NCBI RefSeq assembly: GCF_041435195.1 | Contig: NZ_CP108106.1 | Coordinates: 8,817,001 to 8,881,000, forward strand | Direction of reading: 5' to 3' | Length of the DNA stretch: 64,000 bases | From: Streptomyces sp. NBC_00224 | GTDB lineage: Bacteria; Actinomycetota; Actinomycetes; Streptomycetales; Streptomycetaceae | Shown: one piece after another, positions 23,082 through 56,061 of the stretch | How positions within the stretch are numbered: position 1 is the first letter of the stretch | Layout of the letters: every line of letters starts with the position of its first letter | Notes under the pieces: model-generated | What the model was told of the DNA's origin: nothing | What the model saw: only the letters and a program-made list of their open reading frames with translations | The model's database searches: none | Program-made: the position numbers and the translations under genes

Positions 23082-23102
23082 CCACCCACCAGGAGTCTCG
23101 CC

Positions 23103-24347
23103 ATGATTCTCAGCCCCACCCGCACCAGCGCCACAGGACCGGACGCCCCCACCGCCGCGGGAGTCGCCGCCGTGATCGCCCCCGCCGACACCGGCACCCC
23201 CTACGCACCCGCCCTGGCCCGGCACGGCTGGTCCTGCATCCCCGTCACCCTGCCCGGGACGCTCCAGGCCGGCGCCGCTCCGTCGCGCCTCATCAACCAG
23301 ATCACCCACACCGGCAGCCTGCGCCGGACGGCACGTGACCTCGCCCACGCGGGCACCACAGCCGTCGTGGCAGGCTCACCGGCAGGATGCGAGCTGGCCG
23401 ACCGTCTCGCCGCCCGCCTCGGGCTGCCCGGCAACGCCCCCGCCACCGCCGACCTGCGCCGCGACACCGCCTGGACCAGCGCGACCCTGCGCGATGCCGG
23501 GCTCAGCGCCCCACGCCTCATCCGCACGGCCAGCCTCGGCGAGGCCCTGCGCTGGACCCGGTTCACCCGCCTGCCCCAGCTCGTCGTGGAACACCCTGAC
23601 CCCGCCCGGACACACCCCGGGGCGCTCTGCCGCACACCCGCCGACATCCGTGCCGCCTGGCATCGCCAGCAACACCGCGACAGCCAGCCGCTCGTCCTGC
23701 GCGAGCACCACCCCGGCACCCAGTTCCGTATCCACACCATGAGCGGACCTTCCCACGACGGCAACGACGCCCACACCGTCACCGCCATCTGGTGCGAGAG
23801 CCACACGCGCGAACGGCAGATTGACCGAGCCGACCTGGTCAGCCGCCGAGGCATCCTGGCCCGCGCGCTCACCCGCTACACCCAGCGCGCCCTCACCATC
23901 TTGGGCGTGCGCTACGGCCCCGCCCAGGTCACCGTCGTCTACACACCCGACCGAGGCCCCACCCTCACCGCCCTGCGCACCGATGCTGGCACGGAATTCG
24001 CGCCCGAGGCGCTCCGCGCGGCGACCGGCCACGACCCGGTCGCCGACACCGTGCACCTGATTCTCACCGGCCGGCGCGAAGAGGCCCGCCCGGTCCGCCA
24101 GGCACACACGACTAAGGTCGCGCTGCTGCCCCGCCAGGACGGCGTGGTGAACCCGGAGCTGCTGCACACCCTCACCAGCCTTCCGACCGTGGCCGCCCAC
24201 ACCCCGCTGATCGCAGGCACCGCCGTGAGCGCCGGTCAGGTGGCGGGCTGGTTCCTGCTCGCCGCCGAGGACATGCGGGCCATCAACCGTGACTACCAGG
24301 CGATCCGGGCCGCCGAGGACTTCGGCCTGTACGGGCGAACCGCATGA
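23103..24347 (+). CDS. Second ATP-grasp-like protein
   Basis: 414 residues from ATG 23103, with AGGAG 8 nt upstream and a 21-nt gap after the first ATP-grasp gene. It follows the same plan (N-terminal APALARHGWSCIPVTLPG domain, AVVAGSPAGCELADRLAARLGLPGN, TAWTSATLRDAGLSAPRLI, QLVVEHPDP, PLVLREHHPGTQFRIH), but the ATP-binding lysines and the metal motif are weak or lost. Probably a degenerate paralogue or a partner subunit. It overlaps the next gene by 4 nt (ATGA), which argues for coupled translation. Confidence 0.7.
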   Translation: MILSPTRTSATGPDAPTAAGVAAVIAPADTGTPYAPALARHGWSCIPVTLPGTLQAGAAPSRLINQITHTGSLRRTARDLAHAGTTAVVAGSPAGCELADRLAARLGLPGNAPATADLRRDTAWTSATLRDAGLSAPRLIRTASLGEALRWTRFTRLPQLVVEHPDPARTHPGALCRTPADIRAAWHRQQHRDSQPLVLREHHPGTQFRIHTMSGPSHDGNDAHTVTAIWCESHTRERQIDRADLVSRRGILARALTRYTQRALTILGVRYGPAQVTVVYTPDRGPTLTALRTDAGTEFAPEALRAATGHDPVADTVHLILTGRREEARPVRQAHTTKVALLPRQDGVVNPELLHTLTSLPTVAAHTPLIAGTAVSAGQVAGWFLLAAEDMRAINRDYQAIRAAEDFGLYGRTA

Positions 24348-25591
24348 CATCGCCACCCGATCCCATATGTGCCAACAAACCGGCCGCACCGGGAATGCCG
24401 GAGCGCAGGACGACTTGGACGCCGGTATGCCCGGCTGAAACCGCACTGTACGTCGGTGAACTCCCCTCGGACCCGCTCGACGACGCTGTCCAAGTCCTCG
24501 CTCTGATCGCTGCACTGCGTGCCAAGACACCGCGCATCCCTGGCTTCGCCGGCAACCGTGCCTTCGCTTCCCCCGACCTCGGCTCCGCCACGGGCGCGCT
24601 GTTCAACAGCGTGGTTGATCCGATCAACAACGATGCCTGCACCATCGACACCAGGGCCTACGAGCAGGCCGTGGTCCGCTTCATCGCCCAGACCGCCCAA
24701 GCGCGCCCCAAGGACACCTTCGGCTACGTCACGCCCAGTGACAGCGAGGGACTCCTGTTCGGCCTCGCCACCGCCCGCCGTCGGCTGCCCGACGCCGCCG
24801 TCTACGCCTCCGACCAGGCCCACGACAGCGTCGCCACAGCCGCGGACCTCCTCGGCATGAAGCTCGTGACCATACCCACCACGCGTGACGGGGCAATGGA
24901 CCCACAGGCCCTGAAGAGCGCGGCGCTCCTCCAGCGCCGCATCCGTCCCCACGCCGGGCGCGGCCCAGGAGCCATCGTGGTCGCAACGATCGGAACGGTC
25001 ATGCGCGGCGCGTACGACGACGTCACCGAACTCCGTCAATCGGCTGCAACGGCGGGGGGTGTCCATGTCCATGCCGACGCCGCCTGCGGCGGGCTGATCG
25101 CCGCCCACGCGCCTTCCGCACCCCGCTGGAACTTTGCCCACGGCGTCGACTCCCTCTCCATCAGCGGCCACGAAATCCTCGACGCCCTCATCCCGTGCGG
25201 CGTCGTCCTGACCCGCCGACACCACGTCGCGGCGCCCCTGCTGGCCAGCACCTACGGCCAGGCCACCAGCCAGAAGCACGGCCACTCCCGCAGCGGCCTG
25301 GCCGCCCTGCTCCTCTGGTGTGTGCTGCGGCGCATCGGGCACTCCGGCCTACGCGCCCACGTTCTTGGCTGCCTGGCAACCGTCCAGTACGCCGTCGAGC
25401 AGCTCACCCTGGCCGGCGTTCACCCCACCCGCACCACCGACTCCCTCACCGTCTGCTTCGACCGGCCCGCCGAACGGGTCGCCCGCAAGTGGCACCTCGT
25501 CTGCGAAGGCCAGCTGGCCCGCCTGGTCACCGCCGGCCACGTCACACGGACTTCGATCGATGCCCTCCGCCGCGACCTGCGCACCCCCTGA
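24344..25591 (+). CDS. Group II PLP-decarboxylase-like protein lacking the catalytic lysine
   Basis: 415 residues from ATG 24344 (ATGA overlap). It resembles histidine/aromatic amino-acid decarboxylases: SDSEGLLFGLATARR, YASDQAHDSVATAADLLGMK (His160 stacks on PLP in the family), ATIGTVMRGAYDDVTEL, HVHADAACGG (Asp245 binds the pyridine nitrogen) and SLSISGHEILDALIPCGVVL. In known enzymes the last motif is SGHK, and that Lys forms the Schiff base; here residue 277 is Glu. Either the protein no longer decarboxylates, or it does different chemistry. Third gene of the block. Confidence 0.8.
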   Translation: MTSPPDPICANKPAAPGMPERRTTWTPVCPAETALYVGELPSDPLDDAVQVLALIAALRAKTPRIPGFAGNRAFASPDLGSATGALFNSVVDPINNDACTIDTRAYEQAVVRFIAQTAQARPKDTFGYVTPSDSEGLLFGLATARRRLPDAAVYASDQAHDSVATAADLLGMKLVTIPTTRDGAMDPQALKSAALLQRRIRPHAGRGPGAIVVATIGTVMRGAYDDVTELRQSAATAGGVHVHADAACGGLIAAHAPSAPRWNFAHGVDSLSISGHEILDALIPCGVVLTRRHHVAAPLLASTYGQATSQKHGHSRSGLAALLLWCVLRRIGHSGLRAHVLGCLATVQYAVEQLTLAGVHPTRTTDSLTVCFDRPAERVARKWHLVCEGQLARLVTAGHVTRTSIDALRRDLRTP

Positions 25592-25624
25592 CACGAGGCC
25601 GAACCACGCGACAGGAACATCCCT

Positions 25625-26266
25625 ATGCAACGCATCCTTCTCACTCGCCCAGCCACCGCCCAGCGCACCATGATCGACACCTGGCTCGACAGTTACATCA
25701 TGCGCGCCCATCCCCTCCTCGGACGCAGTGGCGCCGTCTGCCCCTACGTCACCGCAGCCCGCCGCCACGGCGTCATCCGCGTACGGGCCGCCACCGACAC
25801 CCCGACCGGAGACCTGGTACCCCGCGACCGCCAGCACACCAGCCTCGCCCAGGCCCGGACTTGGCTCCACGCAGTCCTGCGCACCGCGGTCGACGATTTC
25901 GAACACCACCCCTGGCCTCCCCACGCACGCCAACTGCACTGCCTCGTCGTGCTGCTCCAGGGCCTTGCCCCCGATCACTGGGGCGAACTCGACCGCGTCC
26001 ACGCCGAGGTCAAGGCAGACGTGATGCGGCGAGGCCTGATGATCAGCCGCTTCCACCCGCGCTGCCCGGCCACGGCCGTGCACAACGCTTTCTTCGCCGT
26101 GAACCGGTCGCCGGCCCCGCTTATCGTCATCCGCCGCATGGCCCGCGATGACCACCTCTTCGCCGACGACGACCAGCAGCTGGGGGCCTACCAGCGCCAC
26201 TTCCCGGACAGCGAGCGATGGGACACACCATCCAGCTGCGCAGCAGCCCACCCGCAAACCCTGTGA
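25625..26266 (+). CDS. DUF6875-like protein
   Basis: 213 residues from ATG 25625; AGGA upstream. Soluble. Core blocks: HPLLGRSGAVCPYV, a middle W-L-x-AVLRTA helix, FHPRCPATAVHNAFFAVNRSPAPLIVIRRM and LFADDDQQLGAYQRHF. This is the pattern of DUF6875, an uncharacterised family. In actinomycetes it sits in biosynthetic clusters, as it does here with ATP-grasp and PLP genes. The Cys-Pro-(Y/F) and F-H-P-x-C motifs could hold a metal or be catalytic. Fourth gene; a 180-nt gap then separates the acyltransferase. Confidence 0.68.
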   Translation: MQRILLTRPATAQRTMIDTWLDSYIMRAHPLLGRSGAVCPYVTAARRHGVIRVRAATDTPTGDLVPRDRQHTSLAQARTWLHAVLRTAVDDFEHHPWPPHARQLHCLVVLLQGLAPDHWGELDRVHAEVKADVMRRGLMISRFHPRCPATAVHNAFFAVNRSPAPLIVIRRMARDDHLFADDDQQLGAYQRHFPDSERWDTPSSCAAAHPQTL

Positions 26267-26462
26267 CCACGGGCTGACACCGCCTGTGTGACACGGCGGC
26301 GTCACCGCGGACCTCATCCCTTGGATTCGTGCGCTGGCAGCGCCTCTGGCCTACACCAGCGACTCCAACGCCACCGCTGCGCTCACTGCCCCCGACCGCA
26401 CGCCGAAGGCCGCGCTGCGGGGGCGCATCCTCCCCCCAGCCGCCTCCATGGAGTCCAACGCC

Positions 26463-27539
26463 ATGACCACTGCCGTCCCCGACACCGACACCTCGAGCAG
26501 AGCCGATCACCAGGGCATCCGCACTACTGTGCTGAGTGACCGGCGCGCCCTCGCTTTCCTCGACCGCTGCTGGCCCACCCTCTACACCCGCGACCCGCAC
26601 AGCACGCCGTACCAGTCCAGGGCCTGGCTGGGAGGCTGGGCACGGCACTTGCCCCTCACGGCCGCCCCAGTCATGGTGATCGCCCATGACAGCGGTGGAC
26701 CTGTCGCGGCGATGGCCATGACATACGAGGTGACGGACGACGGCCATGACCGGATGCGGCCACTGTCCGCACCCGCCGCCGAATGCATTCGCGCCGTCGG
26801 CCCCGGAAGTGAACACCTGGCCGTCGCGAACGCACTGGTGCGATGCCTGGTCGGACTGGCCCGCGACGGAACGCAGGTTGAGCTTTCGGACGTTCCGGCC
26901 GACAGTGCTCTCGCTCACCAGCTGGCCGTGCAATGGAACGGCTCCCTGGACCAGACGCCCTACGCCATGATCGCCCTGCCGGTCGGCTATGGAGGCCTCT
27001 CCCGGACAACGCAGCGCGGCCACCGGCGCCGCCAGCGCGTCTGGGACAACTTGGCCGAGCACGGCCACCGCGTCCGCTACCGCCGCACCCAGAGCACCGC
27101 CGAACTGCTGGAGACCCTTCCCACCCTTGAATACTTGCACCGGCTGAGGCGGCCAAACCAGCCGGAAGGCCTACTCCATCAGGGCCTTCAGCCGTGGCGC
27201 ACCGTCCTCGAACGCTGCAGCACCGCAGCCTTCATCGCCACACTGACTCTCGATGAGGACGTAGTCGCGACCCAGCTGTGCCTGCACCGCGGACACCGTG
27301 TCCACTCCGCCCTCGCCGCCATGAACCCCACCGCCTGCGCCCTGGCGCCTGGACACGCCCTCCTGCGGCATCTCACCGCCGACCTGGAACGCTCTGGATA
27401 CCAGACGCTGGATCTCGGCAGAACGCGACCAGAACCCGGCCAGATCCACTACAAGGCCCAGTACGCCGCAACATGGACACGAACACTGGCGATCGCCAGC
27501 CAACCACTGGCTACGGTCGACTCCCCGGGTCTATCATGA
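26463..27539 (+). CDS. BioF2/FemAB-like GNAT acyltransferase
   Basis: 358 residues from ATG 26463 (GGAG 9 nt upstream; ATG 26448 is an alternative). It has the double-GNAT plan of the BioF2-like family: N-terminal SRAWLGGWARHL, a first half-domain with VMVIAHDSGGPVAAM, then GGLSRTTQRGHRRRQRVWDNL, a 'HRLRRPNQP' linker, and a second GNAT core AAFIATLTLDEDVVATQLCLHRG, DLERSGYQTLDLGRT and PGQIHYKAQYAATW. Members transfer aminoacyl or acyl groups in peptide-like natural products and cell-wall precursors. Last gene of the block. Confidence 0.78.
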   Translation: MTTAVPDTDTSSRADHQGIRTTVLSDRRALAFLDRCWPTLYTRDPHSTPYQSRAWLGGWARHLPLTAAPVMVIAHDSGGPVAAMAMTYEVTDDGHDRMRPLSAPAAECIRAVGPGSEHLAVANALVRCLVGLARDGTQVELSDVPADSALAHQLAVQWNGSLDQTPYAMIALPVGYGGLSRTTQRGHRRRQRVWDNLAEHGHRVRYRRTQSTAELLETLPTLEYLHRLRRPNQPEGLLHQGLQPWRTVLERCSTAAFIATLTLDEDVVATQLCLHRGHRVHSALAAMNPTACALAPGHALLRHLTADLERSGYQTLDLGRTRPEPGQIHYKAQYAATWTRTLAIASQPLATVDSPGLS

Positions 27540-27840
27540 TTTAGGTGTTTCTCGCTGGTTTGGCCTAGTAGTTCTCTTGTGGGTTGTTACCCGTCCGGCC
27601 GTAAGGCGGCCGTCGAAGAGCCGGTCGAACTCGTTCAACGCGGTCTTCCACTTGTTGTTCCACCGCTGACGTCCGCGTCCGGTGGGGACCAGGGCGAGTG
27701 TGGTGAGGTAGAGGCGTTTGAGGGCGGCCCGCACATGGCGGCTCCGTCCCAGGCCGCTGGGCCAGCCCCACCACGATCTTGTCGACGGTCACCGCGCGGG
27801 CGTTCTGCTCTTCCACCGTCCATGCCCCCGTTCCGGGGGC
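27534..27840 (-). pseudogene. Transposase C-terminal remnant (IS630-like)
   Basis: Minus-strand frames read VTVDKIVVGLAQRPGTEPP and then, after a frameshift, MRAALKRLYLTTLALVPTGRG followed by RWNNKWKTALNEFDRLFDGRLTAGR. This is the tail of a common Streptomyces transposase (K-x-ALNEFD-x-x-F-x-GRL). Only the last ~80 residues survive. It marks a past insertion at the end of the biosynthetic block. Confidence 0.6.
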
Positions 27841-28068
27841 CGGGTGGTTGTGCCCTACAAGCCTCGCGGGACAGAGGAGTGGGTTACTTGACTAAGTTGA
27901 GGCGGATGTGACGCCTGGGACGGCGAGTCCGCCGTTGACGGAGCCGTACGGGCGGCAGCCGCAGAAACCAGAACCGGGGGATTCGGAAACCGCAGGTGCG
28001 CGGTCAGACCGGCTGAGATCATGGCGAGAGGGTCAGCGCATGATCATGGCACAGCAGTGGGGGCGGCG

Positions 28069-29319
28069 ATGGACGAGACGAGCACGGTGCGGGCGGTCGT
28101 GATCGACTACAAGGCGGTCCTGCGCTCGCCTGGGCACGCCCACAACGGGATCGCCGACTTCCTTCAGTGGCTCGACGAACACGGCATCTCTTTCGTACTG
28201 CTCACGACCGACTCCCTCGACGCCGAAGCCGCCCTGACGGCTGCTGGTCTGCCCGCGCCTGCCCTCCACCTGTGCCGCGACGACATCCCCGGCAGGCCGG
28301 CCCGTGGAAGCGGTGCCTGGCTGCTGACGGTCGCCGACCGCCTAAAGCTGCGCGCGAATCAGATCGTCCTGGTGGGAACCTCGGAGTGGGACTGGCGCAC
28401 CGGCATCAACGCCGGCGTCGTTCACGTCCACGCCCGCTGGGCCAGCCACGTCCGCGACAACAAGGGCATGCTCACCTTGTTGGCTGACGAGCCGGCGGAC
28501 GTCGGTGAGCTCCTGGAGCACTTCCTCCTGGATGAACCCCGCTGGGCCTTCAGCCACGACGACGACGCCCGCTCCTTCAAGATCCGCTCGCTGCTGCCTC
28601 CCAACGTGCGGTTCCCCCGGGAAGCCGGCCGGACCTTCGAGCTCCAAGACGTCTTCACACGCGGCCGCACGATCACCGTCGGCAGCCAGGACGCCCGCGA
28701 CATCCTGATGCTGCGCCTGCTCTCCTCCGCATACCTCGACGGCACCCTGCCCCACCGCAGCCTCTTCTGCGTTTACCCCAGCAGCTCCCCAGGCCGGGTC
28801 AGCCAGCAACTCGCCGGCTTCCTCACCAAGGCCAAGGTGATGGTTGGCTCCTACTACCGCGAGGACCTCCTCGAGCGCACCGGCCAGGCCCCGGACACCA
28901 GCCTGGAACGGTGGAAGCGGAGCCGGGGCGAGGCGAGCACGGCGGACATCTCGATCGGCGCCCAGGCCCGCACCGTCCGGATCAACCCCAAGTACAAGGG
29001 CAAGCTCAAGGGCAAGATGGTGATCGTCTTCGACGACTTCACCACCGAGGGCAAGTCCATCGAGTGGGCCCGCACCCTCCTGACCAGCGCCAACGCGGCA
29101 CAGGTCATCGCCCTGACCATCGGCAAGTACGGCGCCTCCCGCCACACCGCCTACCAGCTGCGCCCCGGAACGACGATCGACCCCTACCAGGTCAGCTACC
29201 ACCTGGCAGCCAGGAACTTTGTGACGACGCCCGTCACCGGAGACTCAGGCCCGGGCCCCGACAGCGCCCTGCAGGCCACGATGTCCCACTTCATCGCCGC
29301 CGCGCAGAACTCCGAGTGA
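28069..29319 (+). CDS. HAD-like / phosphoribosyltransferase fusion protein
   Basis: 416 residues from ATG 28069 (GGGGGCGG upstream). Residues ~1-150 are a HAD-like domain: AVVIDYKAVLRS (motif I with Asp13; the second Asp is Lys), FVLLTTDSLD (motif II), and VGTSEWDWRTGINAG (motif IV). Residues ~170-400 are a PRTase domain: SLFCVYPSSSPGR, then KGKMVIVFDDFTTEGKSIEWAR, the PRPP-binding loop of type I phosphoribosyltransferases. HAD-PRTase fusions occur in Ter- and DNA-processing-linked actinobacterial operons. First gene of a unit with dprA- and comF-like genes, 180 nt apart. Confidence 0.82.
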   Translation: MDETSTVRAVVIDYKAVLRSPGHAHNGIADFLQWLDEHGISFVLLTTDSLDAEAALTAAGLPAPALHLCRDDIPGRPARGSGAWLLTVADRLKLRANQIVLVGTSEWDWRTGINAGVVHVHARWASHVRDNKGMLTLLADEPADVGELLEHFLLDEPRWAFSHDDDARSFKIRSLLPPNVRFPREAGRTFELQDVFTRGRTITVGSQDARDILMLRLLSSAYLDGTLPHRSLFCVYPSSSPGRVSQQLAGFLTKAKVMVGSYYREDLLERTGQAPDTSLERWKRSRGEASTADISIGAQARTVRINPKYKGKLKGKMVIVFDDFTTEGKSIEWARTLLTSANAAQVIALTIGKYGASRHTAYQLRPGTTIDPYQVSYHLAARNFVTTPVTGDSGPGPDSALQATMSHFIAAAQNSE

Positions 29320-29499
29320 CTGTGCCCATCATCCGGCCCTCGGACGAGCCGACGCGGCTCGGGGAGAACCTGAGCCGAACGATCGACCCGACCACACCCT
29401 TCCCTCCCGTACGGGGTCCGCGTACGCCATGATGGAGGTGGCCCGAGAACCTTGCTTCATCCTTCGAACATCCCGGGGCCACGAGTAGAAGGACACCCG

Positions 29500-30465
29500 A
29501 TGGACCTCAATATCACCGCTGAGCAGCACGATCTGCTGACCCTGTGCGCGCTGCGCATCGGCGACACCTCCCTGGACTGGAGCCTGCTCGCCCGCAGCGC
29601 CCAGAGCCCCGAGGGCCTGGCCGCGCTCATGGACGGACAGCTGCACGAGGACTCGCGTGCCGCGACGAAGAACCGCCCCCTGCTGCAGCAGGCCCTGGCC
29701 GCCGGCCTGGACGAAGCCCGTGCCCGCGTCGACGACGAGCTCGCCGCGGCCAGCAACGCCGACGCGCGCCTGGTCACGGTCCTCGACAAGGACTACCCGG
29801 CGAACCTGAGGCTGATCGGCAACCTGCCGCCATTCCTCTTCTACCACGGCGAGCTCGATCAGCGCGACGCCCGCTCCATCGCCGTCGTCGGCACCCGCCA
29901 GGCCTCCGAGGACGGGCTGCGCCGAGCCGGCCGGATGGCCCGCGAGCTCGTCGAACACGACGTCGTGATCGCCAGCGGTCTGGCCAAGGGCATCGACGCG
30001 GCAGCCCACCGGGCCACGCTCGCTGCGGGCGGCCGTACCTTCGCCGTCATGGGCACCGGCATCGCCGCCCCGATCTACCCGGCCGAGAACCGGCCCCTCG
30101 CGAAGGCGATCCTCACGGCTGACGGAGCGCTGCTGAGCCAGTTCTGGCCCACGAGCCCCCCGGCGAAGTACACCTTCCCGCGCCGCAACGTCGTCACCTC
30201 CGGTACCACCCTGGGCAGCGTCGTCATCGAGGCTTCCAGCACGTCGGGCGCCAAGATGCAGGCCCGCCTGGCCGCCGAGCACGGCAAACTCGTCTTCCTG
30301 ATCCGCTCCCTCGCCGACACCCAGCCCTGGGCCAAAAAGATGCTCGATGAGGACCGGGCGATCCTGGTCACCGCCTCCAGCGACATCACCAACCGCCTCG
30401 GCCAGGCCACGGACATCCAGGCCGCCGGCCAGCAGCGCCAGCAGCTCGCCCTGGCCGGCCTGTGA
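29500..30465 (+). CDS. DprA-like DNA-processing protein (SLOG/Rossmann fold)
   Basis: 321 residues from ATG 29500, with AAGGA 7 nt upstream. N-terminal helical part, then the DprA/Smf core: DYPANLRLIGNLPPFLFYHG (the family's YP-x-x-L ... P-P-x-L-(F/Y)-x-G), SIAVVGTRQASEDG (residues ~126-139), VVIASGLAKGIDAAAHR (~153-169), PAENRPLA and FPRRN. DprA loads RecA on ssDNA; the isolated fold also appears as a nucleotide sensor (SLOG) in defence operons. The C-terminal winged helix of housekeeping DprA is lacking, so this is an accessory variant. GTGA overlap with the comF-like gene. Confidence 0.85.
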   Translation: MDLNITAEQHDLLTLCALRIGDTSLDWSLLARSAQSPEGLAALMDGQLHEDSRAATKNRPLLQQALAAGLDEARARVDDELAAASNADARLVTVLDKDYPANLRLIGNLPPFLFYHGELDQRDARSIAVVGTRQASEDGLRRAGRMARELVEHDVVIASGLAKGIDAAAHRATLAAGGRTFAVMGTGIAAPIYPAENRPLAKAILTADGALLSQFWPTSPPAKYTFPRRNVVTSGTTLGSVVIEASSTSGAKMQARLAAEHGKLVFLIRSLADTQPWAKKMLDEDRAILVTASSDITNRLGQATDIQAAGQQRQQLALAGL

Positions 30466-31205
30466 CGGCAGGCCTCCCGGATCCGGCAGGCTTCCCCGAC
30501 TGCCCCGTATGCGCCTACCGCATCACCGGCACCGCCCGCCTGTGCTCCGACTGCGCCGGCCGCACCCTCCAGCCGGTCGCCGAGCCCCACTGCCCGGTTT
30601 GCTCCCAGGTGGTCGCGCCCGGCAGGCAGTGCAGCAACCGGGTGTGCGCGCTATCGGAAGCCGAGCGGGGGTTCTCCCGAGTCGACGCAGTGGCCATGTA
30701 CTCCGGAGCCCTGCGCGACAAGATCCACAAGCTGAAGTACGACGGGAAGGCCGGCTGGGCGATGATCTTCGGGCGGCTCCTTGTCGGCTGGATGGAAAGC
30801 CACCCCGAGGAGATGCGGGGCGTCGACCACGTCGTCGGCAACCCCACCCACACCGGCCGCCAGCCGATCCAGCACATCGAGGCGATCATGGACGCCGCCT
30901 ACACTGAGGACGTGACCCGAGCCTTCCCACTCAGCCCGCCGGGCGCACACCGGCTGGTGAAGCAGGCCGAGACGGCCCGGTCCGCGAACCGCACGCTGGA
31001 CGAGAAGCGCACGGCCGCCACCGCGCATGCCGCCGCCCTGACCTGGACCGGAGACACCAGCGACATCAAAGGAGCCACCATCCTGCTCGTCGATGACGTG
31101 TTCACCAGCGGATCGCAGCTCCAGCACGTCGCGCTCCGGCTCCGGGCGACCGGCGCCGCCGACATCCGGGGACTGGTTCTCGCCCGAGTCCCCTGGAGCG
31201 GATGA
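30462..31205 (+). CDS. ComF-like phosphoribosyltransferase with zinc fingers
   Basis: 247 residues from GTG 30462, overlapping the dprA-like stop by 4 nt. N-terminus has two zinc knuckles (CPVCAYR ... CSDCAGR and CPVCSQ ... CSNRVC). The PRTase domain contains ALRDKIHKLKYDGKAGWA, where ComF proteins have their conserved K-Y motif, HVVGNPTHTGR and ILLVDDVFTSGSQL, the PRPP-binding D-D-x-x-T-(T/S)-G motif. ComF homologues act with DprA in DNA uptake or repair. With the HAD-PRTase upstream, this operon has two PRTase domains around one SLOG protein. Confidence 0.85.
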   Translation: MTAGLPDPAGFPDCPVCAYRITGTARLCSDCAGRTLQPVAEPHCPVCSQVVAPGRQCSNRVCALSEAERGFSRVDAVAMYSGALRDKIHKLKYDGKAGWAMIFGRLLVGWMESHPEEMRGVDHVVGNPTHTGRQPIQHIEAIMDAAYTEDVTRAFPLSPPGAHRLVKQAETARSANRTLDEKRTAATAHAAALTWTGDTSDIKGATILLVDDVFTSGSQLQHVALRLRATGAADIRGLVLARVPWSG

Positions 31206-31310
31206 CTCCGCCCCCGAGACCCCAGGAGTGAGCCTGGCGGCTGGTTCAGGTCGGTGGGTCAGTGCCGGATACGCCGCACCGAACTCACGCGGCCTGCCCA
31301 GGGGCCGTGG

Positions 31311-32309
31311 TCATGCGCCACCGGCCCGGGCCGGTGATGCCGTGGTCGGGGCGTCCGCGTCGGGGATCACGACGATCCCGCCGAGGTGGTCAGTGACCCA
31401 TGCCGGAGGAGTCCGGCCTTCCAGGACGTCGCGCACGTAGTCGGGGGCCTCCGCCCGCAGACCGCGGAGCGCGTGCGCGAGGTAAGGCACGGAGAAGTGC
31501 CCGAAGTCGTTGGGGACGTTCTCGAAAAGGGCGCCGGTGACAGGAGCGGCGCGGTCCATGACCGCCGCACCGGCGAACTGGCCGTACCTGATCTGCTGAA
31601 CCGGCCGGAGAAGCTCTTTTGCCACCCGGCGAGACCCCCGCTGCGGCTGCCGCAAAAAGCGGTCGAGGCCTTCGTCCAGGCTGCGCACGAGAGGCACGAT
31701 CGGCGCGTCCAGGTGGTCGGGGCTGGCGATGTCTTCGACAGGGGTCGCGTCGTGGAAGGCCATCACGCCCGCACTTCTCCCGCCCAGACCGACTGCGGTC
31801 TCCGCCACCAGGGCAGAGACGATGGACACCCCGGCCCGGTCGCGTTCCTTGCAAAGAGCGTCATCATGGGTGCGATCGCAGTTCAGCGTCGACCTGTACT
31901 GCGAGTCACCGCAGTACAGGATGTAGGCCGCAGGGACCTGGAAGCGATTTGCCGCCCCGATCAGCTTGGAGAGCTGCGTCCTGTTGTCGCCGGGCGTCTT
32001 GTAGGTGAAATCGATGCTCCAGCGCGTGCCGTGCACCTTCAAGATCTTTGCCTGGACGAGGAGCCCGTAGCAGGTGCCGTCCCGGTCCACCCACCACCAC
32101 AGCCAGTCGGCTCCGTTCTCCTTCTCCTGGCCAGCCGTCTCGACGAATTGGATGCGTGGGCTCGCGGTGGACAGCAGCACCTGGGTTGCCGCCACCTCAT
32201 GGAACATTCCGCCAGCGTCCAGCATGCGCGTCATCAGACGATCCGCCGCCGTCCGGCCCTGCCGGAGTGCCTCGTACGGGCTGGTCTCATGATCGGAAAA
32301 GTCGTTCAA
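31311..32309 (-). CDS. DUF6615-like protein, probable PD-(D/E)XK-type nuclease fold
   Basis: 332 residues from the minus-strand start at 32309. The N-terminal ~140 residues hold FHEVAATQVLL (Glu38), NGADWLWWWVDRDG (Asp68), then GLLVQAKIL (Gln86/Lys88), followed by a strand pair and PAAYILYCGD. E ... D-x(n)-Q-x-K is the active-site pattern of restriction-endonuclease-like folds. NGADW(E/L)WW ... (L/V)QAK is typical of the DUF6615 family seen in defence islands. The C-terminal ~190 residues are unassigned. Convergent with the ComF-like gene, 105 bp apart. Confidence 0.68.
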   Translation of the reverse strand: MNDFSDHETSPYEALRQGRTAADRLMTRMLDAGGMFHEVAATQVLLSTASPRIQFVETAGQEKENGADWLWWWVDRDGTCYGLLVQAKILKVHGTRWSIDFTYKTPGDNRTQLSKLIGAANRFQVPAAYILYCGDSQYRSTLNCDRTHDDALCKERDRAGVSIVSALVAETAVGLGGRSAGVMAFHDATPVEDIASPDHLDAPIVPLVRSLDEGLDRFLRQPQRGSRRVAKELLRPVQQIRYGQFAGAAVMDRAAPVTGALFENVPNDFGHFSVPYLAHALRGLRAEAPDYVRDVLEGRTPPAWVTDHLGGIVVIPDADAPTTASPARAGGA

Positions 32310-32512
32310 CGCGACAGCCCCTCTCGGAGACTTGGGAATCGCACCTCCCCATCATCCTCCTCCGCCGCCGCCGCGGCCGCTGCTGGAGCGATCGTGAAGT
32401 TCGGAAGGCTCCAACGAAGGGAGGCCGGAGCGCCTCGGTATCGGCCGAGGCCCGATTGTCCGTGCATGTCGCTGCGTTCTGGCCGGACGGCAGCTTCGCA
32501 TACTGGTACGCC

Positions 32513-33139
32513 ATGACGACGGAAACGACGGACGTGATCCGCAAGTGGGACGACATGGCCCCCACGGCGGTGCCGTGCCCGGACTGCGGCGCCGACGAAG
32601 GAGAGCCCTGCCCGGGCGGTGTCGTGCACATGAACCGGTGGGCACTGATCATGTCGCGCGTGGACCCAATCATCTTCAGCCAATTCCGCCCCAGGCTGAC
32701 GGCGGAACATGCGGATGGGTCCCGGTGCCCGCGAACGGGGAAGGGTAAGCACGTTCAACGCCCGCTCGACTCACGCTGTCCAGGCCGTGCGTTCTACGTG
32801 ACGCACTGCCCGAACTGCGGTTGGGCATGCCAGAAGCCGAAGCGCAAGGACGCCGAAAACGCCGCGCAGTTGCATGTGCGGTTCTGCGCCGACCAGGAGA
32901 TCCGGGACCGTAGCCTGACGCCCGCGGAGCGCCAGGAACGGCAGCGCCGGAAACAGGAGCAAAGGCGCCGCGAGGCCCTGACCTTCCCGTGTCCGCAGTG
33001 CGGCGTGCAGGCAGGAGAGTTGTGCCTGAACCGCCGCAAGAAGTATCCGCAGCCCGATCCCCGGCTTGTACACCTCAAGCGCTACGGACGCCCGGCCGTT
33101 AGTGTCCGACCGACTGATACAACAGAGGTCTCCAATTAA
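32513..33139 (+). CDS. Protein with multiple actinophage-type zinc fingers
   Basis: 208 residues from ATG 32513; no strong ribosome binding site. Finger 1: CPDCGADEGEPCPGGVVHMNR. Finger 2 in the middle: C-P-x-x-G ... CPGRAF with HCPNCGWACQK. Finger 3: CPQCGVQAGELCLNRRKK ending VHLKR. The C-x-x-CGA-x-x-G-x-x-C ... H-x-x-R layout is widespread in actinophages and Streptomyces accessory DNA, where it probably binds nucleic acid. A lysine/arginine-rich helix (RQERQRRKQEQRRR) lies between fingers 2 and 3. Confidence 0.7.
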   Translation: MTTETTDVIRKWDDMAPTAVPCPDCGADEGEPCPGGVVHMNRWALIMSRVDPIIFSQFRPRLTAEHADGSRCPRTGKGKHVQRPLDSRCPGRAFYVTHCPNCGWACQKPKRKDAENAAQLHVRFCADQEIRDRSLTPAERQERQRRKQEQRRREALTFPCPQCGVQAGELCLNRRKKYPQPDPRLVHLKRYGRPAVSVRPTDTTEVSN

Positions 33140-33211
33140 CCCTGGCCACGGGGTGGCTACCACGCAACTCGGCCCGTGGCAAGGCTCCCTGGCGCCGTTC
33201 GGCGTCGGCCG

Positions 33212-33418
33212 CTACCTGGTGGCGATCCAGAACCCGTCGTGCTGCTCACACAGCGGGTCTGGACAGAGCCAGGTGACCAGGACGTCCGGGTCCAGATCAG
33301 GCTGCAGGCTCGGGAGTTCTGAGATGCGAGGATGGCTCATCGTCCGGCAGGCGGGGCAGGGGTGAGCGCGCAGGCGGCGCGCCTCGGACCGGGGGTACAT
33401 CTGCTTCGGCTGGCTCAT
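33212..33418 (-). CDS. Small zinc-finger-like protein, hypothetical
   Basis: 68 residues from ATG 33418, with a GTGGGA site just upstream. Basic N-terminus, then HPCPACRTMSH and a C-terminal LVTWLCPDPLCEQHDGFWI. The paired Cys motifs could bind zinc. No family recognised. It converges on the zinc-finger gene at 32513-33139 and may serve the same element. Confidence 0.5.
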   Translation of the reverse strand: MSQPKQMYPRSEARRLRAHPCPACRTMSHPRISELPSLQPDLDPDVLVTWLCPDPLCEQHDGFWIATR

Positions 33419-33545
33419 GTTTCCCACGCTGACACAGAACGTGCCCGTCCATTCCCCCGGCTCCGTTGTAGCAGTGCCCTCACGGTCACCACGAAGCCAA
33501 CGAGGACTCAGTCAAAGACGCGTTCTAACCGTCGAGGGGAAGGCC

Positions 33546-33871
33546 ATGACAGGATTCGATGTTTTTCTCACCTGGCAGTTCCCTGCCGCGCTGATGGCGG
33601 CTGCGGCTGCGGGCGGGCTCGTGCGATGGCGGTCGGCGGGCATAGGGGTGATGAGCCCTGTGCTGGACTATTCCTGAACTCTGCGGGCGTGATTCTCGGC
33701 CTGGGCCTCCCCACCGTCGCGGCCTGGGCCGACGGAAGCCACTTTCCCTCTGCGTCGTCCGCATTCGGCTTTTTCGGCGGCGCCGCCGTGGGGGTCCTGG
33801 TGGGCGCGGCTGTCGTCATTCCACTGACCGCGCGCTGGGCATCCGGGGAGGATCCCGGCACGGAGGCGTGA
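33546..33871 (+). pseudogene. Small membrane protein gene, probably frameshifted
   Basis: ATG 33546 has a fine GGGGAAGG site and starts a hydrophobic protein (MTGFDVFLTWQFPAALMAAA) that stops at 33675-33677. The neighbouring frame continues with two more hydrophobic segments (SAGVILGLGLPTVAAWADG and FGGAAVGVLVGAAVVIPLTA) to TGA 33869-33871. The three segments look like one protein of ~107 residues with a frameshift around 33640-33665. Could also be two separate short frames. Confidence 0.4.
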
Positions 33872-34049
33872 GATACCGCGTGCCCGGCCCGGACCGCAGG
33901 TGCACCGGGCCCGTCGGGTAGTAGCCGCACGAGTGGAAATCCGCGGTGACCCGGGTAGCCGGCGGCCTGCCGGAGGTGGCGAGGGCGGCGGCCGGGCCCG
34001 CGAGAGCGGCGACTGCCGCAACGGCAGTGATGGTGATCAAGGTACGCAT
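33816..34049 (-). CDS. Truncated secreted SH3-like peptide
   Basis: 77 residues from ATG 34049. Signal peptide MRTLITITAVAAVAALAGPAA, then DFHSCGYYPTGPVHLRSGPGTRYL, the V-x-(V/L)-R-SGP-(G/S)-T-x-Y block of bacterial SH3 domains. After this the expected second half of the domain is missing, so it is probably a truncated copy. The 3' end overlaps the frameshifted membrane gene on the other strand. Confidence 0.45.
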   Translation of the reverse strand: MRTLITITAVAAVAALAGPAAALATSGRPPATRVTADFHSCGYYPTGPVHLRSGPGTRYLTPPCRDPPRMPSARSVE

Positions 34050-34154
34050 GACTGCCCAACAGCCCTCATGATCTGGCTCCGAACATGATCCGAGAAACAG
34101 TGCCTAACAGTCTGCCGTTTGACGGCTGGGCAGCCTAGGGAACCAGGAGGCGTT

Positions 34155-35006
34155 CTACCGGCGGACGGCCGAGATCAGTCCGCCGGGGCGCTCCTCGCTC
34201 TGCGGCGGGGTGGTGATCGGGCGGCCGTAGGCGGCGGCGCGCTCGCGCAGGGTGTGGCTGGTGGCCTCCCAGCCGTGCCCGGCCAGCCAGTCCACCGGGT
34301 CGTCGGGCATCTCCGAGAGCCACATGGACGCCGCCGATCCCGGCTCGGCGTCCGCGCGGAAGCGCTCGATCACGCCGCGCGGGCTCAGCGTCAGCCCCAT
34401 CCGGCTGCCCGGCGCCGAGTGCGCGCTGATCCGGGCCAGCAGCAGTTCCACCGCTTCCTCGGGGAGGTAGATCAGCAGTCCTTCGGCGATCCATACGGTC
34501 GGCACCGCAGGGTCGTGTCCTGCGGCGGCCAGCGCGGCTGCCCAGTCCTCGCGCAGATCCACCGCGACGGTGATCCGCTCGCAGCGTGCGACGGCCTGCT
34601 CCTGGCGCAGTATCGAAGCCTTGAAGTCGAGTGGGGCGGCGGTGTCGACCTCGAACAGCCGGGTGCCCTTGGGCCAGTCCATCCGGAAGGCCCGGCTGTC
34701 CATGCCGGCGCCGAGCAGCACGACCTGGCGGACCCCGGACGCACAGGCCTGCTGCAACAGGTCGTCGAGGAACTTCGTCCTGATGACGATGGAGTGCGAC
34801 ACGGCCAGTCGGCGCAGGTGCGCGGCCTCGTCGGGCAGCGGCGGCGAGGAGGGCCCCAGGCCGCCGGCGGTGGCGAAGGCCTGTGCCAGCGGGTCGCGGA
34901 ACAGCGCGTTCTCCCGCTCGCTCTCCAAAGCCCGCACCCTGGCCACCCCCACCGCCGTGGCCCACACTCCCGACGGCTGCACCCGCTCCTGCTCATCAGT
35001 CACCAC
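34155..35006 (-). CDS. SAM-dependent methyltransferase, LCM-like (PF04072) family
   Basis: 283 residues from GTG 35006 (GTG 35003 also possible). Blocks: ARVRALESERENALFRDPLA, VSHSIVIRTKFLDDLL, VRQVVLLGAGMDSRAFRM (SAM motif I), RLFEVDTAAPLDFKASIL, WIAEGLLIYLPEEAVELLL. This is the family of putative mycobacterial/streptomycete methyltransferases related to leucine carboxyl methyltransferase. It is usually tied to small-molecule O-methylation; substrate unknown. Stands alone. Confidence 0.88.
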   Translation of the reverse strand: MVTDEQERVQPSGVWATAVGVARVRALESERENALFRDPLAQAFATAGGLGPSSPPLPDEAAHLRRLAVSHSIVIRTKFLDDLLQQACASGVRQVVLLGAGMDSRAFRMDWPKGTRLFEVDTAAPLDFKASILRQEQAVARCERITVAVDLREDWAAALAAAGHDPAVPTVWIAEGLLIYLPEEAVELLLARISAHSAPGSRMGLTLSPRGVIERFRADAEPGSAASMWLSEMPDDPVDWLAGHGWEATSHTLRERAAAYGRPITTPPQSEERPGGLISAVRR

Positions 35007-35533
35007 GCCAGACTAGATGAGATTCCCAGGGGGCCTGATGAGTGGAGCCAGATTCATGCGCGGCCAACCAGTCATGCGCGCGGTGACCGGCTACGACCAC
35101 CAAAACCACCATTAGGCGAAGACCAACAGTCACCCCTGTGTACGCGACCACACGAAGTGGACCAGAGCCCGTTCTCGCGAACAAAGCCAGTACGTCACGG
35201 ACTGGGTGGCCGACAAGATCCGCTGGGGGACTGAGCATCGACCCGACCGCGCAAGCCGCTCTGAGTGAGACGCTGGCGGGTTGTCCCGACGAGCAGATCA
35301 GCGTGGTCCGGGCCCGCTGACGTCCGTAGTTGACCCACCGTCTCCCTCTGGTGTGCCCAGGCTGCGGCGAGGGTATCCAGTCGCACGGCCTTGCACCGAG
35401 GCGGTGGTCAGTGCCATCCGTTCTCCCCCGACAGACCGGCAGCGCCCGCGAGGAAGGCGGTGACTGCGGCTGAGCTGGGCAGCGGCGTGTGTGCGGCCGC
35501 CAATCTTGTGCTGGCAGCGGCCCAGCAAGGTGC
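35007..35533. other. Intergenic (~530 bp), no gene recognised
   Basis: Open frames here lack starts with ribosome binding sites and match no family. No RNA gene or strong hairpin was seen. It separates the methyltransferase promoter from the RelE-like toxin gene. Confidence 0.4.
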
Positions 35534-35800
35534 CTACACCTCGTTGAAGCCACGCGAGGCGTCGTAGATGTCCGCCTCGATGACCACTATGTAAAAGGCG
35601 GTCACGACGTAGTTGACCATCACATGGTCTTCCCACAATGAGCGCGTCACAGAGTCGGTTGTGTAAGCAAGGTGACTGGCAGCGGCTTCAGGCTCCGCTG
35701 CGATCCTGTCGACAAGACGTACCAACTTCTTGCGATCTTCGGCTGGCAGGTAGTCACGGAACCGCCCGGCCTGCTCAGTAAACTGCACGCGTCTCTTCAT
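35534..35800 (-). CDS. RelE/ParE-like toxin candidate
   Basis: 88 residues from ATG 35800. MKRRVQFTEQAGRFRDYLPAEDRKKLVRLVDRI, then DSVTRSLWEDHVMVNYVVTAFYIVVIEADIYDA, has the ParE/RelE fold order (basic N-terminus, two helices, then strands), with an R-x-LWEDH motif in place of the usual R-x-x-x-x-x-YR. No antitoxin frame is found next to it. It sits just downstream of the conjugation operon, in the same orientation, possibly a maintenance module. The assignment is by pattern only. Confidence 0.58.
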   Translation of the reverse strand: MKRRVQFTEQAGRFRDYLPAEDRKKLVRLVDRIAAEPEAAASHLAYTTDSVTRSLWEDHVMVNYVVTAFYIVVIEADIYDASRGFNEV

Positions 35801-36061
35801 CGAGGCAGAACTATAGGAACACCAAGCAGGGCTCTGCCAGGCATATCGGGACGATGATGTCGTCGCCGCAGCAGACTGGGCGGGCTTTGGGCGGATACCT
35901 CGACCAGGGTGAGAGGGGAGTGGCTCCCATCGGTGACGTTCCAGTCCGAGCCTTGCCCGCCCACTGCCGTGCGTACCGCATGCCGAAACCGCAGGCGCGC
36001 AGCGCGGTTCGGGAGCCTTTCCGGGGCCTGCTGCGCCCCCGCTGTTGCCCGGGCGGCTGCG

Positions 36062-36973
36062 TCACAACTCGGTCCACGGCCGTGCTTTGCCCCCGGCGAG
36101 AGGCTTCCAGACGTTGCCGGTGGGGCCTGGGTTTTCGAGGTCGTCGAGGATGGCTGCGCCCATGGGTACCTGCCGGGCGAGTGCGGCGACGAGGGGGTGT
36201 TCGGCCGCCATGGCCTGCAGGTCGCTGATGCGGTTGCCGAGGACGGTACGGGAGGCCCCGGTCAGGACGAACAGGATGCGGGGGAAGACGGGGTACCAGC
36301 GCAGCCATATCGGCCCCGGGGTGGGCTGGCGTGTGCGGGGCCGGCCGACGAGTTGCGGTTCGTACGTCCACAGGCGGGCGTATTCGATGAGTTTGGTGGC
36401 GAGGCGCTCGCTGCTCATGGTCGCCCGGTCGACTTCGATGAACGCGCGGAGCTGGGTGCGCTGGTGGTCTGTGGTGAGGGTGTAGTGCATGAGGGCGTCG
36501 GCGATGAGGCGCTCGCCGTCGCCGAGGGGGTGGGAGACCTCGGGGGTCCAGTCCCAGGGGCCGTGCTCGTCGCCGCGCTGTCGGGCGTCGGTGACGAAGG
36601 CGAGGTGGGTGCGCAGGACGGTGAGGGTGTGCGGGGTTTTGAGCGAGGCGGCTGTCGCCGTGGTGATGGGGTAGGGGGGCCGGCCGCGCAGGGCGGGGAA
36701 GTCGCGGGTGAGGCGGGCGCCTTCGCGGGTGAGGAACCACAGGCGGGACCGGTTGGAGGCGGGCAGCACCGCGGCATCCACCAGGCCTTCGTGGCGCAGT
36801 TTGTTCAGCGGCGCGGAGAGGGTCTGCAGCCGTGCGTGGGGACGGAGGAGTTCATGGAGCTGAGAGGTGGTCGCGATGCGGTGCTGGGCGAGCGCAGCCA
36901 GGAGCTGATGCGCCAGCGTCTCGCCGGGACTCGGCCGACCTCCAGTGGGCGGGGACTCGAAGGGGGTGCTCAC
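36062..36973 (-). CDS. Replication-relaxation family protein (Replic_Relax)
   Basis: 303 residues from GTG 36973, with AAGAGG 8 nt upstream; overlaps the VirD4-like stop by 4 nt. Two N-terminal winged helices (LLAALAQHRIATTSQLHELL, RLQTLSAPLNKLRHEGLVD), then SRLWFLTREGARLT, HTLTVLRTHLAFVTDAR and a restriction-like ADALMHYTL ... RAFIEVDRATMSSERLATKLIEYARL core. The family (PF13814) is found in actinobacterial conjugative elements and helps plasmid DNA processing or transfer. Last gene of the conjugation operon. Confidence 0.85.
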   Translation of the reverse strand: MSTPFESPPTGGRPSPGETLAHQLLAALAQHRIATTSQLHELLRPHARLQTLSAPLNKLRHEGLVDAAVLPASNRSRLWFLTREGARLTRDFPALRGRPPYPITTATAASLKTPHTLTVLRTHLAFVTDARQRGDEHGPWDWTPEVSHPLGDGERLIADALMHYTLTTDHQRTQLRAFIEVDRATMSSERLATKLIEYARLWTYEPQLVGRPRTRQPTPGPIWLRWYPVFPRILFVLTGASRTVLGNRISDLQAMAAEHPLVAALARQVPMGAAILDDLENPGPTGNVWKPLAGGKARPWTEL

Positions 36974-39600
36974 GGCTGATACCTCTTCTTCTTGCCCGGC
37001 CGGGTACGCGGGCCGGTCGCGGCGGCGTGGCGGGTGACGAAGCGGGTCACACGGGTCAGCTGCTTTTCGGCCCGGTCGGTGAGCTGCGGAAGGGGTGCGG
37101 CGCCCGCCGCGGCCTGGGCGGCGCGCTCCACTGCCGCCGCCTCGTGGGGGCGGGCGTAGTCGGCGAAGACGTCATCGAGGTGCGGGCCGGTGATGCGGAC
37201 GGGGCCGACACGGCGGCCTTCGACGGTCAGTGACATGTAGTGCTCGAACCGGTCCAGAGAAGCGACGACTTCGGGGCTGGGGTGGTCGCCCCATTCGGCG
37301 GTGATCGGGGTGATGGCGGACTGCGAGCCCGCGGTCGAGGCCAGAGTCGAGGCGTTCTGCACCAGCGACAGCTTCACCGGCATAGGAAGGCGGCCCAGGA
37401 GCTGGGTCATGCCGTGGACGTGAACGCGGTATTTGCGGAAGTCCTCGAACATCGCGGCGATCGTCTCGGGGGCCGCGCCGGTCAGCGTGATCAGTTCGTC
37501 GAAGTAGGAGCGGAACGGCACCCGCTGGTCTTCGGGGGTGTCGCGGCGCGAGCGGACGGCGCGCAACAGGTCGCGGGCGAGGAGCGCGGTGATGAGCCGG
37601 TCGGTGGGCCCGTTGCCGCCCGGGCACACCCACACGATCATCTTCGTGTCCATGGCGGCGCGGATGTTGTAGACGCCGGCGGGCTGTCCGAGGAAGGCGC
37701 GGGTCACCGGGTTCGCGGCGAGGCGGGCGATCGGGTTGAGGACCACGGCGAACGCGTCGGCGGGAAGCGTGGGGAACACCGTGTGCCACCAGGAGCGGGT
37801 CTCCTCGTCCAGGCACCCCTCCACCGCCGTGAGGGCTGCGGCACGGAAGGCGGGGTCGGTGAGCAGGGAGCGGGTGTGGAAGATCGTGGCCTGGTCCTCG
37901 GGCTTCCCGGCGTGGCAGGCGGCCTCGTTGACGGCCACCAGCACCGCCAGTGCCGCGGTGAAGATGGTCAGTGCCCGCGGTGCTGTGGCATCGTCCCAGC
38001 CCAGCACGGACGCGTACGCGTCGGCGGTCGCTTCGACGACCTCGTGGGCGACCTGTCCCTGGTGCATGCCGATCGGGTTCCAGCAGCTGATCTGCGGAGT
38101 CGGCCCGTGTGCGTTGAGGTCGATGAGCGCGATCCGTTCCATCAGATGGTCGTGGGCCAAGAAGGGCAGCGCGCGCGGCCACGAGTCGCGGTGGGGGTCG
38201 ACGAACATGAGTCCGCCGCCGGCGTGGGCCCAGCCGATGGCCTGGGCCAAGGCGCGTTCGGTCTTGCCGCCGCCTGCTTTGCCGACGCCGACCTCGAAGA
38301 GCGTCTCGCGCGCGTAGGTGGCGACCAGGCGACGGCGGCCGTCCGGCCCGCGGTAGATCCCCTGCAACAGCAGGTCGGGATTGCCGTGTGCGAAGGTCGG
38401 CAGGTCGCCGGCCAGTAGGGGCAGGCGGCAGTGCACGGTGGGAGGCTTGAGCAGACCGGTCAGTTCGTCCAGCTGGACCCAGTTGGCGCGCGGCGGCTGG
38501 CAGTGCCCCAGATTCCAGCGGCGTTCGAAGGCGCGGCGGCTGGGCCAGCGGTCCGCGCCGATCCGCCAGGGACCCACCCGCAGCCCGCGCATCGCCCACC
38601 GTGACCCGCCGCCGAACACATCCAGCGCCGCCTGGAGCTGAGCGAGCCGGGCCTCGGCCCGGCCTTTGGTGTGGGAGGCGCACATCACCAGCAACTGCAC
38701 CCGCACCAGGTGGTCGTCGTCGGCGAGTTTGCCCAGCGCGTCGGCCGGATCGATGCGGCGGGGGACCGGCGGCATCACCAGCCGCCGCCCGCCACCGCTG
38801 TTCTTTCCGGTCACCAGCTGCTGCACCTGCCAGGCCAGCGAGTCCTCGATCCCCAAGGCGTCCTGCCGTATCCACCGGGCGGCCCGCTGGGCCTCGCGCC
38901 GTTCCATGCGGCGCGCCTGCGTCATCAGTTGCAGACGTCGCGCGCGCAGCGACGTTTTGGGGGCGCGCTGGATGTCGAGCCGTATCTCGGCCAGGTCACC
39001 CAGGTCGGCCCGCAGGTCGGACACAGCATCGACGAGCGGCTGGAGCGGGTCGGGGGAGAGGGGTACTTCGCGCAGCGGCGCGGTGGGCCTGCCGCGCAGG
39101 ATGAACTCCGCCCGCACCACATGGGTGCGCGGCTTGTCCGTCAGCGAGCCGGCCCTGTTCACTGTCACCCCGGGGCCGAACGGGGTGATCGACAACAGGC
39201 GTTCACCGCCTGCCGGTCCTTCGATCCGGTAGCGCAGCGGGCTGGAGCCGTCTGCGCGCAGCCGGATCTGCACCGTCTTTGAGCGCCGCGGCGCCCACCA
39301 CGGCATGGAGGTCGAGGCCCGGGCGAGCTGGACACCCCGGCGGAAAATCTCCTCGATACCAGGATCGAAATGCCGCGACGGCACGAGCTCCAGCGCCATC
39401 CGCTGCGCCGAGGCCTTACGCGCCAGACGGCGCACCACCACCTCACCCGCCACCCACAGGCTGATGGCGGCCGCGGCCACCACCCACCAATAAGTGATCA
39501 CCCAGCCCACGGCATGCACGACGCCCAGCACGAGCCCGAGGAACGGCGCGGACGCCGCCTCGCCTGCCGGTCCGGTCACGTACGGGGCCGCGGTATCCAC
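36970..39600 (-). CDS. VirD4/TraG-like conjugative coupling ATPase
   Basis: 876 residues from GTG 39600. N-terminal membrane anchor (GLVLGVVHAVGWVITYWWVVAAAAI), a large linker, then an ATPase domain: GVGKAGGGKTERALAQA (Walker A, residues ~435-450), MFVDPHRDSWPR, and FRSYFDELITLTGAAPETIAAMFEDFRKYRVHVHGMTQLLGR (Walker B and the coupling-protein helix). Such hexameric pumps deliver relaxosome DNA to the type IV channel. It overlaps the previous gene by 25 nt and the next by 4 nt. The tail is basic (GKKKRYQP). Confidence 0.88.
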   Translation of the reverse strand: MDTAAPYVTGPAGEAASAPFLGLVLGVVHAVGWVITYWWVVAAAAISLWVAGEVVVRRLARKASAQRMALELVPSRHFDPGIEEIFRRGVQLARASTSMPWWAPRRSKTVQIRLRADGSSPLRYRIEGPAGGERLLSITPFGPGVTVNRAGSLTDKPRTHVVRAEFILRGRPTAPLREVPLSPDPLQPLVDAVSDLRADLGDLAEIRLDIQRAPKTSLRARRLQLMTQARRMERREAQRAARWIRQDALGIEDSLAWQVQQLVTGKNSGGGRRLVMPPVPRRIDPADALGKLADDDHLVRVQLLVMCASHTKGRAEARLAQLQAALDVFGGGSRWAMRGLRVGPWRIGADRWPSRRAFERRWNLGHCQPPRANWVQLDELTGLLKPPTVHCRLPLLAGDLPTFAHGNPDLLLQGIYRGPDGRRRLVATYARETLFEVGVGKAGGGKTERALAQAIGWAHAGGGLMFVDPHRDSWPRALPFLAHDHLMERIALIDLNAHGPTPQISCWNPIGMHQGQVAHEVVEATADAYASVLGWDDATAPRALTIFTAALAVLVAVNEAACHAGKPEDQATIFHTRSLLTDPAFRAAALTAVEGCLDEETRSWWHTVFPTLPADAFAVVLNPIARLAANPVTRAFLGQPAGVYNIRAAMDTKMIVWVCPGGNGPTDRLITALLARDLLRAVRSRRDTPEDQRVPFRSYFDELITLTGAAPETIAAMFEDFRKYRVHVHGMTQLLGRLPMPVKLSLVQNASTLASTAGSQSAITPITAEWGDHPSPEVVASLDRFEHYMSLTVEGRRVGPVRITGPHLDDVFADYARPHEAAAVERAAQAAAGAAPLPQLTDRAEKQLTRVTRFVTRHAAATGPRTRPGKKKRYQP

Positions 39601-44106: not shown

Positions 44107-44107
44107 C

Positions 44108-55938: not shown

Positions 55939-56061
55939 GGCACGGCTTCCGTCCGGTCGGAGGCGGGCCGGCCCGTCCGGCTCACAACTCACATAATGGC
56001 AGGAGTGAAGGTGGGGGTCCAGTGCGCTGCCCAGGTTTTCCCAGGCAGCCTCGGGAGGGCG

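Follow-up and report, generated by a model that had tools for sequence, protein, structure and literature searches.

The question raised by a small locus in Streptomyces sp. NBC_00224 is whether three adjacent plus-strand genes, which combine two phosphoribosyltransferase (PRTase) domain proteins with a DprA-family protein, make up one system, and whether a nuclease-like gene that faces them belongs to it. The locus lies in a 64,000-nucleotide stretch (contig NZ_CP108106.1, positions 8,817,001 to 8,881,000), here called the window. An earlier note, made from the sequence alone, had proposed a candidate defence or stress module; defence is the best reading of the results reported here, and the trio is a recognizable relative of ShosTA, which that note did not name. 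We consider it likely that the three genes constitute a tripartite ShosTA-type toxin-antitoxin anti-phage system. The gene layout was as previously described, including the GTGA shared between the end of the DprA gene and the start of the ComF gene and the 105 bp between ComF and the convergent facing gene. The DprA and ComF genes are probably translationally coupled because they overlap. The four genes, with product lengths in amino acids (aa), are:

28069..29319, plus strand: gene 1, HAD-PRTase, predicted ShosT-like toxin (416 aa; degenerate HAD domain and PRTase domain)
29500..30465, plus strand: gene 2, ShosA-like DprA, predicted antitoxin/sensor (321 aa)
30462..31205, plus strand: gene 3, ComFC-type third component (247 aa; Cys-rich zinc ribbon and PRTase)
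31311..32309, minus strand: gene 4, the facing gene, DUF6615-like, probable PD-(D/E)XK-fold nuclease (loosely linked, outside the core)

Gene 1 is a relative of ShosT over nearly its whole length. PADLOC called it ShosT (E 9.8e-25), and a profile built from 29 gene-1 relatives matched ShosT chains in the PDB (E 6.4e-34) over profile positions 18-402 of 408. The AlphaFold (AF2) model (pLDDT 92) had a template modelling (TM) score of 0.72 to 8zvc; the top three Foldseek matches were all ShosT entries (TM 0.66-0.72 normalized to the query length, E no higher than 1e-21) and the next-best were HAD enzymes (E 2.5e-5). The HAD and PRTase domains named in the earlier note agree with Pfam matches (PF00702 and PF00156), both below cut-off. 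The phosphoribosyl pyrophosphate (PRPP) loop, FDDFTTEG, is highly conserved, with D322, T326 and G328 present in 29/29 relatives and D323 in 28/29. The HAD domain is degenerate as judged from the alignment. At the positions that we take to correspond to the HAD-enzyme motifs, Asp occupied the motif-I nucleophile position in 27 of 28 aligned sequences, the acid position two residues further on in none of 28 and the first acid position of motif IV in 4 of 29, and the ShosT of a P2-like phage has Ser aligned to the motif-I nucleophile of gene 1. Further in-frame starts of gene 1 were found at 28021 and 28057.

Gene 2 was called ShosA by PADLOC (E 1.7e-63) and matched DNA_processg_A (PF02481) with 193 bits. 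No winged-helix family was among its domain matches, in agreement with its description as an accessory DprA without a winged helix. Gene 3 has the ComFC plan, a cysteine zinc finger and a PRTase with a PRPP loop: an alignment of 14 sequences contained paired cysteines and an intact PRPP loop of the LLVDDVFTSG kind, and matches to DZR_2 (24.4 of 27), PRTase (25.1 of 26.3) and comF (36.9 of 233.55) were all below the curated cut-offs. Named ComF relatives at E 1e-15 were actinobacterial among the matches listed, and a search of the strain's own genome for a canonical ComF gave no good match. Pairwise ratios of nonsynonymous to synonymous substitution rates (dN/dS) were below 0.5 for all four genes, which are thus under purifying selection.

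Comparison with known systems places the locus close to ShosTA. According to a review, ShosT acts as both PRTase and pyrophosphatase and perturbs the purine pool, ShosA is a DNA-binding protein and the trigger is T7 Gp0.7 (PMC12593503). Phage defence has been reported for a DprA-PRTase pair located in a hotspot of P2-like phages (PMC9122126). The ShosTA literature includes Kimelman 2012 (as cited in PMC9122126), Rousset 2022 for DprA-PRTase and Pu 2025 (via a review). The locus shares with ShosTA a HAD-PRTase toxin and an adjacent DprA-family partner and, like the relatives of this locus, ShosTA is often found on plasmids in actinobacteria (PMC10482375). Unlike ShosTA, in which DprA comes first, the toxin gene is first here, and the locus further differs from two-gene ShosTA in its third, ComFC-type gene and in a DprA from a separate lineage. 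The annotated genes of the P2-like phage locus comprise DprA and then ShosT only, and the ShosTA descriptions in open-licence full texts do not mention a ComF-type third gene in the parts consulted. Because a third gene of this type is present, we class the three-gene locus as a variant of ShosTA rather than a plain member.

Two other systems provide parallels. In PsyrTA/RqlHI a DprA-family antitoxin restrains a PRTase-domain toxin, and the toxicity of RqlH requires the PRTase site (PMC4670107); a DprA-family partner with a PRTase-domain toxin is likewise found here, but the toxin there is a RecQ helicase-PRTase and profile scans of gene 1 gave no helicase match. Competence ComFC combines a zinc finger with a PRPP site; the Helicobacter protein binds PRPP and single-stranded DNA, and an interaction of ComFC with DprA is reported from Campylobacter and pneumococcus (PMC9005727). 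The zinc ribbon and PRPP-loop PRTase adjoining DprA at this locus resemble that pair, whereas the genes here accompany a predicted toxin and are found on plasmids and at the end of a chromosome, and the only other DprA match in the genome is 32% identical to gene 2. ComF, its retention and the competence parallel are what is new here; the remainder is already known biology.

In 392 genomes of the genus (own included), gene 1 was detected in 10 (E 1e-20), DprA in 22 (E 1e-60), ComF in 24 (E 1e-10) and the facing gene in 12 (E 1e-10), and 26 loci were recovered when GTDB genomes were scanned. Gene 1 was also detected in 26 of 72,556 plasmid records, 23 of them actinobacterial (six being near-identical S. 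cellulosae records); 22 of the 23 hold DprA and 21 hold ComF. The plasmids without ComF are those of S. cadmiisoli (two-gene type) and Streptomyces sp. P9-2B-2 (ComF remnant), and the toxin is broken in two of the 23 records (NBC_00053 and NBC_01243). The three genes are linked in other arrangements as well, being convergent in one locus (L021), divergent on an Embleya plasmid and about 12 kb apart on a Kitasatospora plasmid, and the trio also occurs in another genus of the family (L189). Five actinobacterial loci with open toxins (L023, L025, L026, L027 and L093) are of the two-gene type, with ShosA upstream (open reading frames of 382-468 aa) and no ComF match, and a viral contig has the same organization.

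The state of the genes at these loci bears on their relationship. A gene was scored as open if it gave a single tblastn match covering at least 85% of the query with no stops, a rule that small N-terminal frame changes pass; the DprA of L108, scored open, shifts frame near its start. Seventy-four fetched sequences (8 exact duplicates) were classed and then 13 more, from which L190-L192 (earlier contigs again) and L200 and L202 (DprA the same as in L164 and L170) were dropped. DprA-only matches (G011, G069 and G279), five further S. cellulosae plasmids and NBC_01724 were left out of classing, and four ComF fragments (L114, L118, L120 and L121) and a lone ComF (L117) are in no count. Thirty-three loci, window included, had an open toxin and a ComF-type DprA, and these represent 33 distinct DprA DNA sequences, three pairs of which are 98.8-99.6% alike. 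DprA was open in all 33 and ComF in 31. The co-occurrence of HAD-PRTase, DprA and ComF genes thus extends beyond close relatives of the strain, as the earlier note had supposed.

In a first set of 31 open-toxin loci other than the window, each had a nearby DprA-family gene, which was a ComF-associated DprA in 26 (one about 12 kb away) and a two-gene ShosA in five. Toxin fragments without DprA or ComF were found in L028 and L030, and L020 was rejected as an orphan toxin because its contig ends where DprA would be. Close DprA genes without an open toxin were detected at eight loci (L029, L105, L106, L108, L109, L110, L170 and L198), where DprA was broken in three and ComF in four; both were open in three of these loci and at least one was broken in five. 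Partner intactness differed between loci with and without an open toxin, with Fisher p values, descriptive only, of 0.005 for DprA and 0.009 for ComF. Among the loci examined, an open toxin was never found without a DprA-family gene while DprA-ComF was found without a toxin, which fits toxin-antitoxin logic. Two apparent DprA-ComF fusions (P0271 and P0278) were rejected as deletion or frameshift remnants.

The tripartite reading draws on sequence homology, fold comparison, the conservation of the PRPP loops, genetic linkage and signs of purifying selection; toxicity, neutralization, the role of ComF and phage defence at this locus we infer by analogy. The PRTase of gene 1 would use PRPP, disturb the purine or nucleotide pool as reported for ShosT and stop growth. 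The DprA of gene 2 would restrain the toxin and sense abnormal DNA, and gene 3 would be a second, usually retained antitoxin or sensor part that works with DprA and probably binds single-stranded DNA and PRPP or nucleotides.

Several observations weigh against this reading. In a tree of 28 DprA sequences, the two-gene ShosA proteins (five actinobacterial and one from phage) were split from the ComF-associated DprA proteins and the genome's other DprA (support 99/98), and on this sequence phylogeny gene 2 stands apart from two-gene ShosA; a tree of 24 toxins had the same split between two-gene and ComF-associated forms with weaker support (91/79). The decay counts are post hoc and come from related loci, several queries and partly draft assemblies. 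ComF is absent from L022 and a remnant in L194 (Streptomyces sp. P9-2B-2), with toxin and DprA open in both. No toxin lay in the fetched stretch around seven DprA-ComF pairs, all open, that form a sister group (L107, L111, L112, L113, L115, L116 and L199), or around an open pair from the close group (L198), so that DprA-ComF may also have a separate function. The DprA and ComF of six stand-alone pairs (the sister group except L199, whose pair was scored against L111) are 63-68% and 47-54% identical, respectively, to those of the window.

One tentative extension of the tripartite system, which we regard as possible but short of likely, is that the competence-type DprA-ComFC pair acts as a two-part guard over a toxin that consumes PRPP: ComFC would gauge PRPP or nucleotides and single-stranded DNA, DprA would gauge DNA, and nothing but their joint state would free the toxin. 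If so, the stand-alone DprA-ComF pairs would provide immunity to such toxins or serve as anti-defence units. The retention of a ComFC-type part in nearly all open-toxin loci offers a handle on ComFC sensing and on the release of a DprA antitoxin.

Somewhat less probable is that ComF is itself a second effector or toxin held by DprA, in which case one DprA would serve two PRTase toxins and the stand-alone pairs would be two-gene toxin-antitoxin systems. Its intact PRPP loop, a weak PADLOC similarity to ShosT and PsyrT and the existence of open DprA-ComF pairs without gene 1 are consistent with such a role, as are the broken ComF genes beside open DprA genes in L105 and L119, since a toxin would be expected to be lost first. 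The reverse was also seen, however: ComF is open in L106, where DprA is broken, and in L117, where the fetched stretch contained no DprA and the DprA match of that genome lies on a different contig. Moreover, the dN/dS of ComF (0.12-0.21, 9 pairs) is lower than that of gene 1 (0.22-0.49).

We think it unlikely that DprA-ComF is a DNA-processing or uptake helper of linear replicons with gene 1 just a frequent neighbour. The eight open pairs without a nearby toxin and a CoiA-like gene less than 3 kb away on two plasmids would suit such a helper, but all three genes are kept in 31/33 open-toxin loci with this DprA, in four arrangements, and the homology of ShosT and ShosA predicts their partnership. 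CoiA was rejected as a constant neighbour: of the 16 genomes or records searched, two had it close to the pair, four had it on another contig and ten gave no match.

The facing gene probably serves defence independently of the trio, as a loose neighbour rather than a core part. Its match to DUF6615 (PF20320) was sub-threshold (15.7 bits, cut-off 23.8), although some of its relatives bear this Pfam label; the Pfam entry gives no function. The acidic and QxK pattern pointed out in the earlier note is real, with E62, D68, Q86 and K88 invariant in 41/41 aligned relatives and E38 in 39/41, and the fold has weak nuclease similarity; the product is probably a PD-(D/E)XK-like nuclease. The earlier note's reading of this gene as a nuclease is plausible, but the gene is no constant partner: beside 31 complete trios it was open in eight, a remnant in three and missing from 20. 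A single four-gene system with this nuclease as effector is very improbable, for although the nuclease-like pattern and fold, the identical convergent position in all 11 trio loci with the gene or its remnant and co-occurrence with gene 1 in 2/392 genomes (own and one fragment; 0.3 expected, p 0.03) speak for it, the gene is absent from most trios, lies on the opposite strand and was found without a gene-1 match in 10/12 genomes and without an adjoining trio on 14/19 plasmids.

Between the window and L016 the synonymous divergence (dS) was 0.58 for the toxin and 0.19 for DprA, and these unlike values within one operon make a recombinational exchange of the toxin gene probable. Window positions 26000-34000 are present twice at 100% identity on the main contig, C1, a duplication that the earlier note does not mention (C1:61379-69379, minus strand, and 8843000-8851000, plus strand), as are positions 55000-64000 (31379-40379 and 8872000-8881000, also 100%), with an equal coordinate sum. 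The copies are mirrored, as they would be if the chromosome were linear and ended in long terminal inverted repeats, and the strain therefore has two copies of the system. A scan of the locus for promoters (sigma-70 consensus only) and terminators found none.

To the left of the trio, ATP-grasp, pyridoxal phosphate (PLP)-dependent decarboxylase and GNAT genes stand in a row (window 21828-27539), perhaps a small biosynthetic cluster. The idea of a Ter-linked, nucleoside-like signal gained no support apart from a single ATPgrasp_Ter match, below cut-off, about 5 kb from the trio (21828-23078); a scan that covered 16 of the window's 50 called proteins showed no other Ter family, and the four genes directly left of the trio had no relatives near the other fetched loci. 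To the right, the conjugative element that had been proposed is compatible with two features:

36065-36973, right flank: replication-relaxation protein (PF13814)
44413-47109, right flank: AAA_10 ATPase, presumably VirB4-like

Between them are large proteins without a Pfam match, and this flank (36065-47109) fits a mobile, perhaps conjugative, element.

Some minor observations concern the wider family. The CoiA-like genes near DprA-ComF are at 6719-8023 of L172 and 958-2523 of L199 (Embleya and S. venezuelae plasmids). A search by crude gene calling and blastp clustering for an alternative toxin common to the stand-alone DprA-ComF pairs found none within the fetched stretches (up to about 8 kb per side, shorter where a contig ended), and the few clusters shared near these pairs were not constant. 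The C-termini of ShosT-like toxins carry zero, one or about three copies of an unnamed repeat of about 90 residues (416, ~540 and ~750 aa, respectively), for which Pfam scans of two long forms gave no match. The repeat has the pattern RxRHLxEQL...WWI...GIxWEP; the window toxin has zero copies, and repeat-bearing forms are found at:

L173, 4421-6682
L021, from 8001
P0031, 413-543

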